Shown here one piece after another: positions 14,705-20,429 of a stretch of DNA of 64,000 bases. The DNA is from Qipengyuania flavescens (GTDB lineage: Bacteria > Pseudomonadota > Alphaproteobacteria > Sphingomonadales > Sphingomonadaceae). The position numbers and the translations under genes were made by a program. The DNA is taken from NCBI RefSeq assembly GCF_029688735.1, contig NZ_JARULD010000001.1, positions 434,001-498,000 on the forward strand, in the 5' to 3' direction. Position 1 is the first letter of the stretch. Every line of letters begins with the position of its first letter. A model generated the notes under the pieces. The model saw nothing but the letters and a program-made list of their open reading frames with translations, did not search any database and had not been told where the DNA came from.

Positions 14705-14780
<76 letters not shown>

Positions 14781-14850: not shown

Positions 14851-15393
14851 ATGGATACCTTCTTCACCAGCGCCGAACTCCCTGCAGGTCTGCGCAGCGC
14901 TTTTGCCGAGAGCCGCATTTCGCTCAGCCTGGCCGATGCGAAGGCTGAAGACATGCCGCTGATCGCAGTGAATCAGCCATTCTGCGATATGTCCGGTTAC
15001 GGCCCGGACGAGGTTCTGGATCGCAACTGCCGTTTCCTCCAGCCGGACGAATCTCCCGACGCCGTTCGCAAGGATATGCGAGAATTCCTCTACGATTCCG
15101 ACGAGCCCGATGGCCGGTTCGTAATTCCGAACGTCACGAAGGACGGGCGGAAATTCCTGAACCTGGTGTATATGGCCAAGCTCAAGAAAGACGATGAGGT
15201 CACTTACGTGCTCGGCTCGCAGTTTCCGGTCGACCCGGAGAAGGCTTCCGAGCCCGACCTCTACGATCGCGCGCTCAAGGAGAGTCTGAAGCAGCTCAAT
15301 TTGCTGACCGGCGATGACAACTGGGCCCTGCTCGGCAGTTTCGACGCGCTGGCGTCGAGCCACTCCATCATTGCAAGGGCCCGAATGGAATGA
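14851..15393 (+). CDS. short LOV-domain blue-light photoreceptor
   Basis: 180 residues: a LOV (PAS) domain from about 18 to 128 plus a C-terminal helical extension. The flavin-binding signature is intact: DRNCRFLQ with photoactive Cys60, Asn59 and Gln64, Asn in KFLNLVYMAK and Gln124 in LGSQFPV. Light should form a flavin-Cys60 adduct and shift the C-terminal helix. There is no output domain. The stop overlaps the next start as ATGA, so it is coupled to the CheB-CheR-HWE kinase; a photosensor acting in trans on that kinase is my inference. The start ATG at 14851 was preferred over longer frames that reach into the tRNA spacer. Confidence 0.92.
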   Translation: MDTFFTSAELPAGLRSAFAESRISLSLADAKAEDMPLIAVNQPFCDMSGYGPDEVLDRNCRFLQPDESPDAVRKDMREFLYDSDEPDGRFVIPNVTKDGRKFLNLVYMAKLKKDDEVTYVLGSQFPVDPEKASEPDLYDRALKESLKQLNLLTGDDNWALLGSFDALASSHSIIARARME

Positions 15394-18300
15394 AGGAGGG
15401 CGCACCAGCAAGCAAGCCCGCACGATCGGGCGAATTCGCGATCGTCGGCGTCGGTGCGTCGGCGGGCGGGCTGGAAGCCTTGCGCGAAATGTTCAGCGGC
15501 TTCGACGGCCAGAGCGGCATGGCCTTCGTGGTGGTCCAGCATCTCGATCCCACGCACGAATCGCTGATGGCGCAGCTGCTCGAACGCTACACGCCGATGG
15601 CGGTGAAGCAGGCGGAAGGCGGGGAGAAGCTCGAACCCGACCATATTTACGTCATTCCGCCGGCCCATGGCCTCGCGGTGAAGGACGGTGTGCTCGAGCT
15701 GACGGAATTCACCGAACAGCGCGGCATGCGTCGCCCGATCGACGATTTCTTCGAGAGCCTTGCGAAGGATCAGGGCGAGCGCGCGGCCTGTGTGATCCTC
15801 TCGGGCACCGGCGCGGATGGCAGCCGGGGCCTGCGGGCGATCAAGGAACATTCGGGCATCTGCATCGCGCAGGATCCCGACACAGCCGCCTATGACGGCA
15901 TGCCCACTGCCGCCATCGGCACGGGGCTGGTCGACATCACCTGCGACCCGCGCGACACGGTCGAGCACCTGTCGAAATTCTTCCAGCGCGCCGGCCTCGC
16001 CGATGTGGTCGAGAACGATCTCGAGGATGCCGACACGCTGCTCGATATCTGCGATGTCCTGCGCGAGGCCGTCGGCCACGATTTCTCGAATTACAAGCGC
16101 AGTACGCTCAATCGCCGGGTCGCTCGCCGAATGCAGGTTCTCGGTATCGAGAATACCAAGGCGTATCTCAAGCACCTCCAGGAAAACGGCAACGAATGCA
16201 GCGCATTGTTCAGCGACCTGCTGATCAACGTCACCCGCTTCTTCCGCGATTCCGAACATTTCAAGCAGCTCGACGAGTTGGTCATTTCGCCGATGGTGAA
16301 AGAAGCCAAGAACGGCGAAGAGCTGCGGATTTGGGTGCCTGGCTGCTCCAGTGGCGAAGAGGCTTATAGCATTGCCATGCTGTTTGCAGAAGCAGCCAAG
16401 CGGTTCGACAAGCGCCCCTATGTGCAGGTGTTCGCTACCGACATCGACGACAAGATGCTCGATATAGGGCGGAGGGGCGTCTACCCGCTGGCGTCGCTGC
16501 AGGACATCCCCAAGCTTTTCCAGGATGAATACATCTACGGAAGCAAGGACAAGTTCACCATCGCCCCGCAGATCAGGGACATGGTGCGCTTCAGCGTCCA
16601 CAACCTCGTGCGCGATCCGCCCTATTCCAAGATCGATCTCGTCGCCTGCCGCAACGTCCTGATCTATTTCGACGATTCGCTGCAGAAGCTGGTGTTCCCA
16701 TTGTTTCACTTCGCCACTCGGGAAAGCGGTTACCTGTTCCTCGGATCGTCGGAAACGATCGGGCGGCATGAAGACCTTTTCGAATCCGTGGACCAGTCGG
16801 CGCGGATTTTCCGGCGCAAGAACGTGAAGGGCAACTACACGCTCAATCTGGCCAGCGACGTATCGCGGCAAATCAATCGCAGCCGACAAAGGCCGAACCG
16901 GGAGGAAACCACGCGGCGGGGCGGCGTCGAGCTGCGCGCTCTGGAAAAGCTGGCGCAGCGCTACTCGCCCGTCAGCCTCTTGCTCGATCGTGAGGCCATG
17001 CTGCTTGAACGCTGGGGATCGGCCGGGCGGTATCTCGATTTCCCCGAGCGGTTGGAACGCTCGATCCACGTGCCCTCGCTCGCCCGCCCGGGCCTGCGCG
17101 AATTGTTCGGCCCGATGATCCGCCAGGTCTCCAACACCGGGCGCAGGGCCATCGTGAAAGAGGTAGAGATCGTTACCGATTTCGGCACGCTGGAGGCGAC
17201 CATCGTCTGCGAGCCGATCGACAACCAGACCTTCCTCTTCGTCGTGAACGAGACCCGCGGCCTCGAACCCGACACCGGGGATGATTACGACGAATTCGAT
17301 CCCGAAGACGGCCAGCGGCAGTTCCTCGAAGAAGAGTTGCAGGCCACCCGGCATCGACTGCGCTCGACGGTGGAGGAGCTGGAAACGACGAACGAGGAGC
17401 TGAAGAGCTCCAACGAAGAAATGATGTCGATGAACGAGGAGCTCCAATCCACCAACGAGGAGCTTACGACCGTCAACGACGAGCTGAAGAACAAGGTCGA
17501 TCAGCTGACCACGGCCAATGCCGATCTCAAAAACTTCTTCGACAGCACCAAGCTGGCGGTGATCGTCGTCGATTCCGAGCTGAAACTACGCAGCTTTACC
17601 GATGCAGCCGAAGACCTCTTCCCGCTGACGAAGGAGAATATCGGGGAACCGCTCTCCACCCTACCGCATAATCTCGACAACGATCATTTCGTCCAAATGG
17701 CGAAGAGCGCCGCCAAGCAGGGAATGCAGGTTGAAGAGGGTATGCATTCGAGTTCTCTTGATCGCGAGCTCGTGTTGCAAGCAATCCCTTATCGCTTGCT
17801 TGACGGTCAGCTGGACGGCGCAACGCTGATCTTCACCGACGTCTCCGAAACGCTGTCGCTGGAACGCGACCTGCGTGAAGAACGCGAGCGTCTGAGGCTC
17901 GCCCTGGAGGTCGCGAAGATCGGCGTCTGGGAATACGAACCCTCGACCGACAAGACGGTGCTGGATCCGACCGAGCGCAATCTGTTCGACCTAGCCCAGG
18001 ACGATCCCGGCGACACGCTGGAGCCGATCATGGCCTCGCTGCCGCCGAATGATCGCGATCGCGTCAATCGCGCATTGCGCATGGCGATGGAAGGAGACAG
18101 CGATTTCGACGAAGTCTTCCGCTTGCCGCTCGACGATGGCGAGACCCGCTACCTCCACGGCCTCGGCAAGCTCATCGAGGTCTCCGGAACGCGCAAATTC
18201 ATCGGCGTGACCTTCGATGTGTCTGCCGAACGCCGCCTGCTCGATCAGCGCGAGCTGATGATCCGCGAGATGAACCACCGGGTGAAGAACCTGTTCTCGG

Positions 18301-18821
18301 TCATCTCGGCGATGGTTTCGATTGCCGCGCGCGATGCCGAGGATATCGCAACCTTCGCCGAGGGCCTGCGCGATCGCATTCATGCGCTTGGCCGGTCGCA
18401 CTCGCTGACCAACGAGGCGGGAAGTGCCGCGGATGGTGGCATTGCGCTATCGAAGCTCGTCGATACGGTCCTGCGGCCTAATCTCGCCGGTCAAAAGGTC
18501 GACATGTCCGGACCCGATACGACCATTGGCAACGAAAAGATTACATCGATTGCGCTGATTCTGCATGAGTGGGCCACCAATTCGACCAAGTACGGAGCGC
18601 TGGCCACCCGCGACGGGTCGATTGACATTCGCTGGATCGCACAGGATGACGAAGTCGCGATCGACTGGCAGGAGGACGGTCAGGCAGCGGGGGAGAAGGT
18701 CGACAGCGGGCCGGGCTTCGGCACCAAGCTCGTGCAAACGGCTGCACGTCAGCTTCGCGGTGAAGCCAGCGGCGATGCGATCGAAGGCGGTTATCGCCGG
18801 ACTTTGAAATTCCCGACTTAG
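15390..18821 (+). CDS. CheB-CheR-PAS-HWE hybrid histidine kinase
   Basis: 1143 residues. CheB methylesterase occupies about 15-200, with Ser24 (GASAGG), His51 (VVQHLD) and Asp143 (SGTGADGS), but no receiver domain. CheR methyltransferase occupies about 215-480 (NRRVARRM, INVTRFFRD, GCSSGEEAYSIAML, CRNVLIYF). A glutamate-rich coiled coil (about 640-715, repeated NEEL heptads) joins to PAS domains at about 715-950. The kinase module has His963 in REMNHRVKN and the HWE hallmarks HEWATNSTKYGAL and WQED. There is no chemotaxis gene nearby. The architecture belongs to the CheB/CheR-PAS-HK class, often tied to general stress or biofilm signalling. Confidence 0.93.
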   Translation: MKEGAPASKPARSGEFAIVGVGASAGGLEALREMFSGFDGQSGMAFVVVQHLDPTHESLMAQLLERYTPMAVKQAEGGEKLEPDHIYVIPPAHGLAVKDGVLELTEFTEQRGMRRPIDDFFESLAKDQGERAACVILSGTGADGSRGLRAIKEHSGICIAQDPDTAAYDGMPTAAIGTGLVDITCDPRDTVEHLSKFFQRAGLADVVENDLEDADTLLDICDVLREAVGHDFSNYKRSTLNRRVARRMQVLGIENTKAYLKHLQENGNECSALFSDLLINVTRFFRDSEHFKQLDELVISPMVKEAKNGEELRIWVPGCSSGEEAYSIAMLFAEAAKRFDKRPYVQVFATDIDDKMLDIGRRGVYPLASLQDIPKLFQDEYIYGSKDKFTIAPQIRDMVRFSVHNLVRDPPYSKIDLVACRNVLIYFDDSLQKLVFPLFHFATRESGYLFLGSSETIGRHEDLFESVDQSARIFRRKNVKGNYTLNLASDVSRQINRSRQRPNREETTRRGGVELRALEKLAQRYSPVSLLLDREAMLLERWGSAGRYLDFPERLERSIHVPSLARPGLRELFGPMIRQVSNTGRRAIVKEVEIVTDFGTLEATIVCEPIDNQTFLFVVNETRGLEPDTGDDYDEFDPEDGQRQFLEEELQATRHRLRSTVEELETTNEELKSSNEEMMSMNEELQSTNEELTTVNDELKNKVDQLTTANADLKNFFDSTKLAVIVVDSELKLRSFTDAAEDLFPLTKENIGEPLSTLPHNLDNDHFVQMAKSAAKQGMQVEEGMHSSSLDRELVLQAIPYRLLDGQLDGATLIFTDVSETLSLERDLREERERLRLALEVAKIGVWEYEPSTDKTVLDPTERNLFDLAQDDPGDTLEPIMASLPPNDRDRVNRALRMAMEGDSDFDEVFRLPLDDGETRYLHGLGKLIEVSGTRKFIGVTFDVSAERRLLDQRELMIREMNHRVKNLFSVISAMVSIAARDAEDIATFAEGLRDRIHALGRSHSLTNEAGSAADGGIALSKLVDTVLRPNLAGQKVDMSGPDTTIGNEKITSIALILHEWATNSTKYGALATRDGSIDIRWIAQDDEVAIDWQEDGQAAGEKVDSGPGFGTKLVQTAARQLRGEASGDAIEGGYRRTLKFPT

Positions 18822-18834
18822 TCGGGCAAAAGCG

Positions 18835-19200
18835 TCAGGCAGCGCAGCTTTTGACTTCGCCGGCCATTTCGAGAGCCGTGCCGATATCTGCTGGCGATGC
18901 CGGCTTTTCGAGCTTCGGGCAGTCGGAAAATTCCTGGCACAGCTCTTTGTGCGAGAGGTTCGCGCTGACGAAAATCACCGGAACGCCCTTCGCAGTCAGG
19001 TCACGGGCGACCGGCCAGACCGGCACTCCTGCGACATCGATATCCAGCAGGGCGAGGTCGGGGGCTTCGCTTTCCAAAGAGGCCAGCGCACCCTCCACGC
19101 TCGTCGATTCCGAGTGGATCGCGTAGCCGAGATCTTCGACGGTATGGACGAGGTCGAGCAGCACCAGTGCCTCGTCGTCTACAATCATAACATTCTGCAT
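18835..19200 (-). CDS. single-domain response regulator (LovR/FixJ-receiver-like)
   Basis: 121 residues, a receiver domain alone. Acidic pocket Asp8-Asp9, phospho-acceptor Asp53 (LALLDIDV), switch Ser79 (VIFVSAN) and Lys99 (KLEKP) are all present. Single-domain regulators paired with HWE kinases act as phosphate sinks or shuttles; in Caulobacter, LovR does this for the LOV kinase LovK. It is convergent with the HWE kinase gene (13-base gap), which is likely to be its partner. A sigma-EcfG-type promoter lies 44-69 bases before its start. Confidence 0.92.
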   Translation of the reverse strand: MQNVMIVDDEALVLLDLVHTVEDLGYAIHSESTSVEGALASLESEAPDLALLDIDVAGVPVWPVARDLTAKGVPVIFVSANLSHKELCQEFSDCPKLEKPASPADIGTALEMAGEVKSCAA

Positions 19201-19243
19201 CGGGGCGACTTTTAACCTTATCCCGCCTTAATCGTGTGGACCG

Positions 19244-19269
19244 AACGGCCCAATCCCGAAAACTGTTCC
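19244..19269 (-). promoter_or_regulatory. sigma-EcfG (general stress response) promoter for the response regulator
   Basis: On the minus strand GGAAC (19269-19265) is followed after exactly 17 bases by CGTT (19247-19244). This matches the alphaproteobacterial general-stress sigma consensus GGAAC-N16/17-CGTT, and it points at the response-regulator gene 44 bases downstream. A second GGAAC lies further upstream without a well-spaced CGTT. Confidence 0.72.

Positions 19270-19322: not shown

Positions 19323-20429
<1,107 letters not shown>

Follow-up and report, generated by a model that had tools for sequence, protein, structure and literature searches.

A separate LOV photosensor, a CheB-CheR-HWE kinase and a single-domain receiver as a putative light-signalling module in Qipengyuania flavescens

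We examined a 64,000-nucleotide stretch of the genome of the marine bacterium Qipengyuania flavescens (contig NZ_JARULD010000001.1, positions 434,001 to 498,000; hereafter the window) in which genes for a short LOV protein, a CheB-CheR-HWE histidine kinase and a receiver-only response regulator lie together (Table 1). An initial annotation had described an intact LOV photosensor without an output domain whose gene overlaps, by ATGA, that of a giant kinase carrying CheB, CheR, PAS and HWE domains, as well as a convergent receiver-only protein. All of these elements were confirmed, and the receiver is complete. Position 19269, where that annotation ended the module, is the outer end of an EcfG promoter-type box. 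Its statement that chemotaxis genes are absent holds for the vicinity of the locus, whereas the genome as a whole contains four places encoding methyl-accepting chemotaxis protein (MCP) domains and one other CheR. Papers are cited below by their PMC numbers.

Table 1. Features of the putative module; positions refer to the window.
Feature	Position	Strand	Size and basis
Short stand-alone LOV photosensor gene (predicted)	14851..15393	+	180 amino acids; Pfam PAS_9, PDB LOV relatives
CheB-CheR-coiled coil-PAS-PAS-HWE histidine kinase gene	15390..18821	+	1143 amino acids; Pfam, PDB relatives
Coiled coil inside the kinase gene, proposed methylation substrate	17313..17525	+	residues 642-712; EExx[AST] heptads
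Convergent receiver-only response regulator gene	18835..19200	-	121 amino acids; Pfam Response_reg
EcfG promoter-type box, GGAAC-N17-CGTT	19244..19269	-	upstream of the receiver; starts 69 bases before the receiver start

Composition of the locus

The closest PDB relatives of the short LOV protein were LOV proteins, the top match being 7ob0, a 176-residue 'LOV protein' whose alignment spans residues 14-130 only. NCBIfam models for LOV kinases and YtvA also hit the LOV part, with scores far below their cut-offs. PAS_9 was the sole Pfam family in this protein, and no effector domain is covalently attached. The NCRFLQ motif is kept with its adduct cysteine, Cys60, intact; in the window copy (DRNCRFLQ), D replaces the first G of the GXNCRFLQ-type motif. 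Residues N59, C60, R61, Q64, N94, N104 and Q124 were invariant among 34 homologues. On the basis of the motif, the adduct cysteine and the flavin contacts, the protein is predicted to be a flavin-binding blue-light photosensor.

The LOV core (about residues 20-127) is followed by a Jalpha helix (134-156) and a conserved C-terminal tail (157-180) containing LASSHSIIA. An AlphaFold2 model with a mean predicted local distance difference test score (pLDDT) of 83.5, and of 81-96 in ten-residue blocks from 21 to 130, contained a standard core and the Jalpha helix, residues 128-180 forming a helix, a short strand and a helix. Tail residues were kept even in diverged plasmid copies, and the tail is a plausible candidate for a docking piece. 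We also considered the tail as a degenerate kinase DHp, BLASTP having stretched two short-LOV/LOV-kinase alignments toward the H-box region; this candidate was dropped after a profile test gave a score of 12.2 and an E value of 0.22, with no shuffle control for the DHp template. A profile comparison of the LOV protein with the kinase found nothing (probability 0.2%). LOV residues 143-167 resembled a strand-helix segment of CheR (kinase residues 433-457) with a score of 23.5, as high as in none of 100 column shuffles and at an hhalign probability of only 6%, which we take as a lead only. No sigma-70 promoter was found in a promoter search before the LOV gene.

The kinase is an HWE histidine kinase by its HWE_HK domain with H-box, N-box and WxE. 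Pfam placed CheB at residues 19-190, CheR_N at 220-266, CheR at 280-470, PAS_10 at 713-818, PAS_3 at 863-939 and HWE_HK at 960-1043, and the scan found neither a receiver domain nor an MCP signalling domain. The kinase is soluble-looking: no transmembrane-like hydrophobic stretch was found, the hydropathy maximum being 1.06. PDB matches included CheR, CheB and blue-light kinase structures, and the HWE part matched the BluLightHisKinLov model with a score below its cut-off. Among 33 kinases, S24, H51 and D143 of CheB and H963, N1064, W1093 and E1095 of the HWE part were invariant and H1059 was nearly so; the roles that we assign to these invariant residues are presumed ones.

The receiver has its phospho-acceptor at D53, and D8, D9, D53, S79 and K99 were invariant in 17 sequences. 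Its PDB relatives were 2lpm, 2msw and, in third place, SdrG (5ieb), and it resembles SdrG/PhyR-type receivers. The best NCBIfam response-regulator subfamily scored 57.7 bits, below the cut-off of 151. FVSAN stands at the place of what we take to be the FATG-type motif of SdrG and the FAT GUY receivers. The Obg gene starts at 19374, beyond the receiver.

Conservation of the gene set

The initial annotation had proposed that a separated LOV protein is partnered with a methylation-domain HWE kinase, and had suggested searching other genomes for the same gene order. We found the order conserved in several taxa, mostly with other flanks, which supports this pairing and counters the first outcome that the annotation had named as refuting it, a gene order without conservation. 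Our samples from the genus, the family and named loci share genomes, and their counts are not independent. The LOV protein was used to search 61 genomes, 37 of them from its own or the same genus and 24 from other families of the order. Short LOV proteins were present in 19 of the 37 (E 2.2e-44 or better) and in none of the 24 at E 1e-15; five further genus genomes had weaker LOV matches, three of which (L021, L023 and L024) run straight into an HWE kinase region. The CheB-CheR-HWE kinase was the next gene in all 19 genomes with a short LOV, one kinase (L029) being cut by a contig end. The convergent receiver followed in 17 of them; L029 stops at the contig edge and L028 has none. A kinase search at E 1e-150 returned the same 19 genus genomes and one more, G033. 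The closest named relatives were an uncultured Erythrobacter and a Qipengyuania sp., which places the window in the Erythrobacteraceae. Within the fetched stretches, rarA or Obg stood beside the module in just 3 of 18 relatives, and the unit is therefore mostly kept in other surroundings. A tRNA-Thr gene at 14705-14780 lies 70 bases upstream of the LOV gene and, because the module has other flanks in most relatives, may mark its insertion site. In one metagenome-assembled genome of the sample (G002; L034 and L073, at about 6254 and 10254) the LOV gene is split between two frames, with kinase and receiver intact.

Among 249 genomes of the family, kinases of at least 53% identity occurred in 14, all with a LOV gene within about 1 kb upstream. 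LOV matches at E 1e-25 were found in 15 genomes, 14 of which have the kinase, and the extra match (G469) aligns over residues 4-97 only. This co-occurrence gave a Fisher p of 5e-22, with the 53% cut picked after the data had been seen. At a further locus (L149) a 48% kinase has a 31% LOV upstream and a receiver on the same strand. A class-wide set of 385 genomes contained the kinase at E 1e-150 in only five, our own included. From 47 named loci we set four (L100-L103) aside, and LOV and kinase were paired at 38 either way (38/43 or 38/47) in Sphingomonadales and Rhodobacterales. Of the paired loci, 29 have a receiver, six have a Crp/FNR-type gene and no receiver, and three have neither, two of these being contig ends. 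The Crp/FNR-type gene lies between LOV and kinase (L078, L079, L083, L086, L087 and L088, in Croceicoccus and Pararhodobacter) and was assigned by Pfam at two loci and by tblastn at the rest.

On plasmids, short LOV proteins at E 4e-22 or better were found in 13 records (H29-H41), three of them from Rhizobiaceae. The same 13 records head the kinase matches at 44.7-48.9% identity (H9-H21; best 20 of 221 records), and LOV and kinase are adjacent by coordinates in every one. By annotation, LOV, kinase and receiver lie on one strand at eight of nine plasmid loci examined, and at the ninth (L180) the receiver is inside the kinase frame. One of the eight (L183) has its kinase annotated as broken pieces. 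In diverged copies, the receiver gene runs in the kinase direction and mostly overlaps the kinase gene. In the L180 locus, on a plasmid of Sagittula sp. P11 (4001-7852), kinase and receiver form one frame of 1283 amino acids; the fused receiver gave a weak Pfam match below cut-off and shares 86% identity with the separately encoded receiver of S. stellata. Because the genes overlap in S. stellata, so that one small change suffices, we count this fusion as one supporting case only for the receiver belonging to the set.

The pair is thus found side by side in Sphingomonadales, in Rhodobacterales and on plasmids of Rhizobiaceae, at LOV identities of 30-43%. Over 35 of 45 loci, after dropping kinases at least 95% alike, distances correlated at 0.90 between LOV and kinase and at 0.88 between receiver and kinase, as shared descent alone would also give. 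In a tree of 40 kinases, from which L107 (a wrong-strand frame) and L154 are absent, a single split between kinases with and without LOV had a support of only 66/41, and 30 LOV-linked kinases grouped at 98/100; L151, without a LOV, and L149, with one, fell just outside this group. Conservation of the gene set is far beyond chance, and with such a set the route from light to the stress response can be tested directly in culturable strains.

The stress response and known systems

The box upstream of the receiver is the only strict GGAAC-N16-18-CGTT match in the window, where 1.17 would be expected by chance in 64 kb. Because by count alone about one match per window is expected, the evidence consists of its place and its conservation. 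Among upstream regions from partly redundant loci, GGAAC-N16-18-[CG]GTT preceded the receiver in 19 of 50 (against an expectation of 0.36 and a maximum of 3 over 200 mononucleotide shuffles) and the LOV gene in 4 of 64, more than in the corresponding shuffles (mean 0.39, maximum 2). With the wider [ACG]GTT pattern the receiver count rose to 23 of 50 and the LOV count to 6 of 64. Four of these six LOV-upstream boxes belong to loci that have the Crp/FNR-type gene and no receiver, so that at four of the six Crp/FNR-type loci the box stands upstream of LOV instead. No EcfG-type box was found at the LOV-kinase unit of the window. The genome encodes PhyR, and a strict box is also present at its PhyR locus; in Sphingomonas melonis the EcfG motif is GGAAC-N17-20-GTT (PMC6599016). 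As a consensus promoter match, the box makes the receiver gene look placed under EcfG. The genus member G033 (L136), with no LOV match and a broken kinase, has kept the receiver with an EcfG-type box.

The module resembles LovK-LovR of Caulobacter, EL346, RT-HK and the Brucella LOV-HK in its LOV input, HWE-type output and EcfG stress link, and LovK-LovR also in having a receiver-only partner beside the kinase, as we take LovR to be. Unlike in LovK-LovR and the EL346-type proteins, the LOV is a separate protein, encoded by the first of two genes with an ATGA overlap, and the receiver is convergent; compared with the LovK/EL346-type kinases, the kinase here is extended by CheB and CheR domains, a long coil of EE heptads and two PAS domains. 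The module probably works like LovK-LovR, but we do not class it as a member because LOV and HWE kinase are not in one chain. We regard it as a variant form of alphaproteobacterial LOV-HWE signalling. To our knowledge, the partners of short LOV proteins are mostly unknown. Like PpSB1-LOV, PmSB-LOV, RsLOV and DsLOV, the present protein consists of a LOV core with caps and no effector; what sets it apart is the kinase gene that usually adjoins it and the conserved tail at its C terminus. Signalling in trans is presumed for short LOV proteins (PMC6798134), and LdaP is a kinase-like LOV protein (PMC10890935).

The Pak kinases of S. melonis with SdrG and PkrB are similar in that they sense stress and have single-domain receivers that act on PhyR/EcfG, and PakB is the kinase with which PkrB is associated (PMC5898713, PMC6599016); unlike in the present case, the terms 'CheB' and 'CheR' occur nowhere in the main text of these two papers. 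Domain order and coil are shared with CheB-CheR fusion kinases, which carry names such as 'cheBR', 'CheR family methyltransferase' and 'chemotaxis protein CheB' on plasmids, and a CheB-CheR hybrid is mentioned in Rhodospirillum centenum (PMC2890560). The seven listed plasmid records with kinases at about 34% identity or less, out of 208 other records, had no such LOV. With chemoreceptor adaptation by MCP, CheR and CheB the module shares the enzyme domains and EE pairs at heptad positions b and c; it differs in that the enzymes, the proposed substrate and the kinase are in one chain, which has no Pfam MCP signalling domain. In the literature, with subscription papers mostly outside our reach, we found no account in which a short LOV and a CheB-CheR-HWE kinase form a pair, and none of coil methylation in such kinases; the initial annotation had remarked that it did not know of this exact arrangement being described.

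Coil, proposed mechanism and alternatives

The coil has EE pairs at residues 648, 662, 669, 676, 683 and 690, in EExx[AST] heptads with the pairs at positions b and c and small residues after them. Conservation in the kinase peaks over residues 661-700, the 40-residue stretch with the highest majority fraction (0.987, versus 0.675 overall in 33 sequences). All seven heptad positions are conserved (0.87-0.99), with b, c, e and g about equal to core a and d (0.94-0.99) and f at 0.87. The chemoreceptor methylation consensus is [ASTG][ASTG]XX[EQ][EQ]XX[ASTG][ASTG], typically at heptad c (PMC6829392). The register of the coil matches that of chemoreceptor methylation sites. The right half of the consensus is complete at 648, 662, 669 and 683, with its first residue only at 676 and 690. 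From the left half only the second residue occurs, with nothing at 648, and the outer left small residue is present at none of the six EE sites. The kinase has four strict [EQ][EQ]xx[ASTG][ASTG] matches, all inside the coil.

NEEL heptads were absent from the genome's ten other HWE-kinase frames, of which three contain a single isolated EExx[ASTG][ASTG]-type match, and the four MCP frames of the genome contain at most two methylation-pattern matches each. Among 6066 open frames of at least 100 amino acids in the fetched loci, 68 had at least three consecutive [EQ][EQ]xx[ASTG] heptads; 58 of these have a CheB motif, eight more come from CheB/CheR kinase loci (L050, L135, L136, L151, L153, L154, L173 and L174) and two are Pfam MCPsignal. 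Since the sample was drawn from the surroundings of such kinases and many of its loci resemble one another, the result shows specificity and not frequency. A first count (65 of 6013) had used the coil itself among the CheB/CheR flags, and the recount used the CheB motif alone. Kinases over 1000 amino acids were kept in the CheB-CheR comparison set. NEEL-rich heptads are common in kinase coiled coils. Because of this, and because the consensus is never more than half present on its left side and the MCP frames of the genome have two matches or fewer, methylation of the coil is put forward as a hypothesis. The sequence features suggest a kinase with light input and built-in methylation adaptation.

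At the level of sequence, the parts are intact, the gene set is conserved and an EcfG-type box is present in this lineage. We read these genes, with a probability of roughly 0.55, as a dedicated three-protein light-signalling module that includes a LOV protein acting in trans, phosphotransfer to the receiver, a link to EcfG and, less firmly, a self-methylation step. In this reading, blue light would generate a cysteine-flavin mononucleotide adduct in the LOV protein, which would bind the kinase through the Jalpha helix and C-terminal tail and change its autophosphorylation. Action in trans, as the initial annotation had proposed, is the best inference that the gene arrangement offers. The kinase would hand phosphate to the receiver as its cognate regulator, and the receiver would link to PhyR/EcfG as a relay or a drain. 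Because the receiver gene looks placed under EcfG, the module in this lineage may be tied both ways to the PhyR-NepR-EcfG stress response, feeding into it and receiving feedback from it. As a weaker step, the CheR and CheB domains of the kinase may methylate and demethylate their own EE-heptad coil, providing adaptation to background light as in chemoreceptors.

Such a module may let light tune the general stress response, and it bears on the routes, other than fused LOV kinases, by which light acts on the stress response of Alphaproteobacteria. In Erythrobacter litoralis DSM 8509, a LOV kinase only partly controls a dark-activated stress response (as cited in PMC12148442). Possible, though less likely than not, is a self-adapting light kinase in which a trans-acting photosensor serves one chain with methyltransferase, methylesterase and a chemoreceptor-like methyl-accepting coil, wired here to the stress response. 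Such a two-component system would have a memory of the chemotaxis type and yet do without chemoreceptor, CheA and CheW. Methylation of the coil would mean that a histidine kinase can itself harbour chemotaxis-style adaptation, and the same idea could then be applied to other CheB-CheR fusion kinases sharing the coil.

Several observations weigh against the three-protein reading. Rhodobacterales relatives of the LOV protein (L081, L082, L084, L098 and L099) have no such kinase nearby, and searches of the genomes of L082, L084, L098 and L099 found no orthologous kinase, two giving a match of 33-34% and two none at E 1e-60. Conversely, the kinases at L150 and L151 (44-45%) have a receiver and no LOV match in the fetched upstream sequence of 1.5 kb or less. 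The six Crp/FNR-type loci are without a receiver, and L060 has neither gene. The LOV tail is the least certain part of its model (pLDDT 61-62 over the last 20 residues) and has no significant resemblance to a DHp. Finally, even the widest form of the box is missing from 27 of 50 receiver-upstream regions, and eight of nine LOV-upstream regions of diverged copies tested have no box. Because the diverged operons mostly lack it (one of nine has it), the stress link belongs to only some members of the family.

That LOV and kinase are neighbours by shared inheritance, the LOV serving another partner, seems very unlikely to us: orphan LOV relatives do exist, LOV proteins with transcription-factor partners are known (PmSB-LOV/LitR, PMC9758184; LdaP/PpsR, PMC10890935) and a Crp/FNR-type gene separates the pair at six loci, but the adjacency persists across Sphingomonadales, Rhodobacterales and Rhizobiaceae plasmids in mostly unlike flanks. 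Besides the phosphate sink proposed in the initial annotation, the receiver could equally serve as an output, a relay or a feedback element. If it were a phosphate sink providing negative feedback, stress-induced transcription by EcfG would yield more receiver, which would drain this and other HWE kinases. Such a role has reportedly been proposed for Caulobacter LovR, and it would fit both the receiver-only architecture and the position of the box on the receiver and not on the LOV-kinase unit of the window. We nevertheless find it rather doubtful. SdrG, a relative by sequence, is reported to relay signals positively to PhyT/PhyR in Sphingomonas (PMC5898713), the receiver gene of the diverged copies mostly overlaps the kinase gene and therefore has no separate promoter region, and the Crp/FNR-type gene that replaces the receiver at six loci would be left unexplained.

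The methylation step has rivals of its own. The CheB and CheR domains might act on chemoreceptors of the cell, coupling light to motility or taxis with no self-adaptation. The four MCP-domain places of the genome would supply targets, and two Rhizobium plasmids (L181 and L183) carry the module beside chemotaxis genes, two MCP genes lying just upstream of LOV in Rhizobium rhizoryzae and separate CheR and CheB genes in Rhizobium sp. CC-CFT758. Considering that the annotation tables for the seven other plasmid loci examined, which are incomplete, list no MCP within 3-4 kb, that the genome has another CheR and that the kinase has a strongly conserved EE-heptad coil of its own, we regard this as unlikely. 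Only slightly short of an even chance is that the coil is a signalling-helix-type dimerisation element and that CheB and CheR are inherited passengers or binders and not modifiers. The commonness of NEEL-type heptads in kinase coiled coils and the missing outer left small residue favour this, whereas the conservation of b, c, e and g at about the level of the core, the invariance of S24, H51 and D143 in CheB and the lack of NEEL heptads in the other HWE-kinase frames argue against it.

Other LOV genes were also encountered. The genome has a second LOV, fused to an HWE kinase (L052; contig C5, about 254934-255572, minus strand), whose frame appears interrupted after the N-box region in the assembly. 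Because this frame appears broken, the split module may be the main intact LOV input of the genome, with an assembly error at the fused gene as the other possibility. Among the 29 plasmid LOV records, 16 were weaker (E 3e-15 or weaker). Seven of these were examined, and six are frames of about 335-400 amino acids with LOV and a kinase part, the other being an unclassified PAS gene. A fusion of LOV to CheB/CheR at the four loci set aside above (L100-L103) was considered and rejected: L101 and L103 have a LOV frame of about 920 amino acids in a chemotaxis-like cluster, L102 was judged by its similar layout, and the frame at L100 was not resolved. In Microvirga and Rubritepida this frame of about 920 amino acids stands beside a separate CheB-CheR region, joined by an MCP in Microvirga, and the layout in Roseococcus (L100) is similar.

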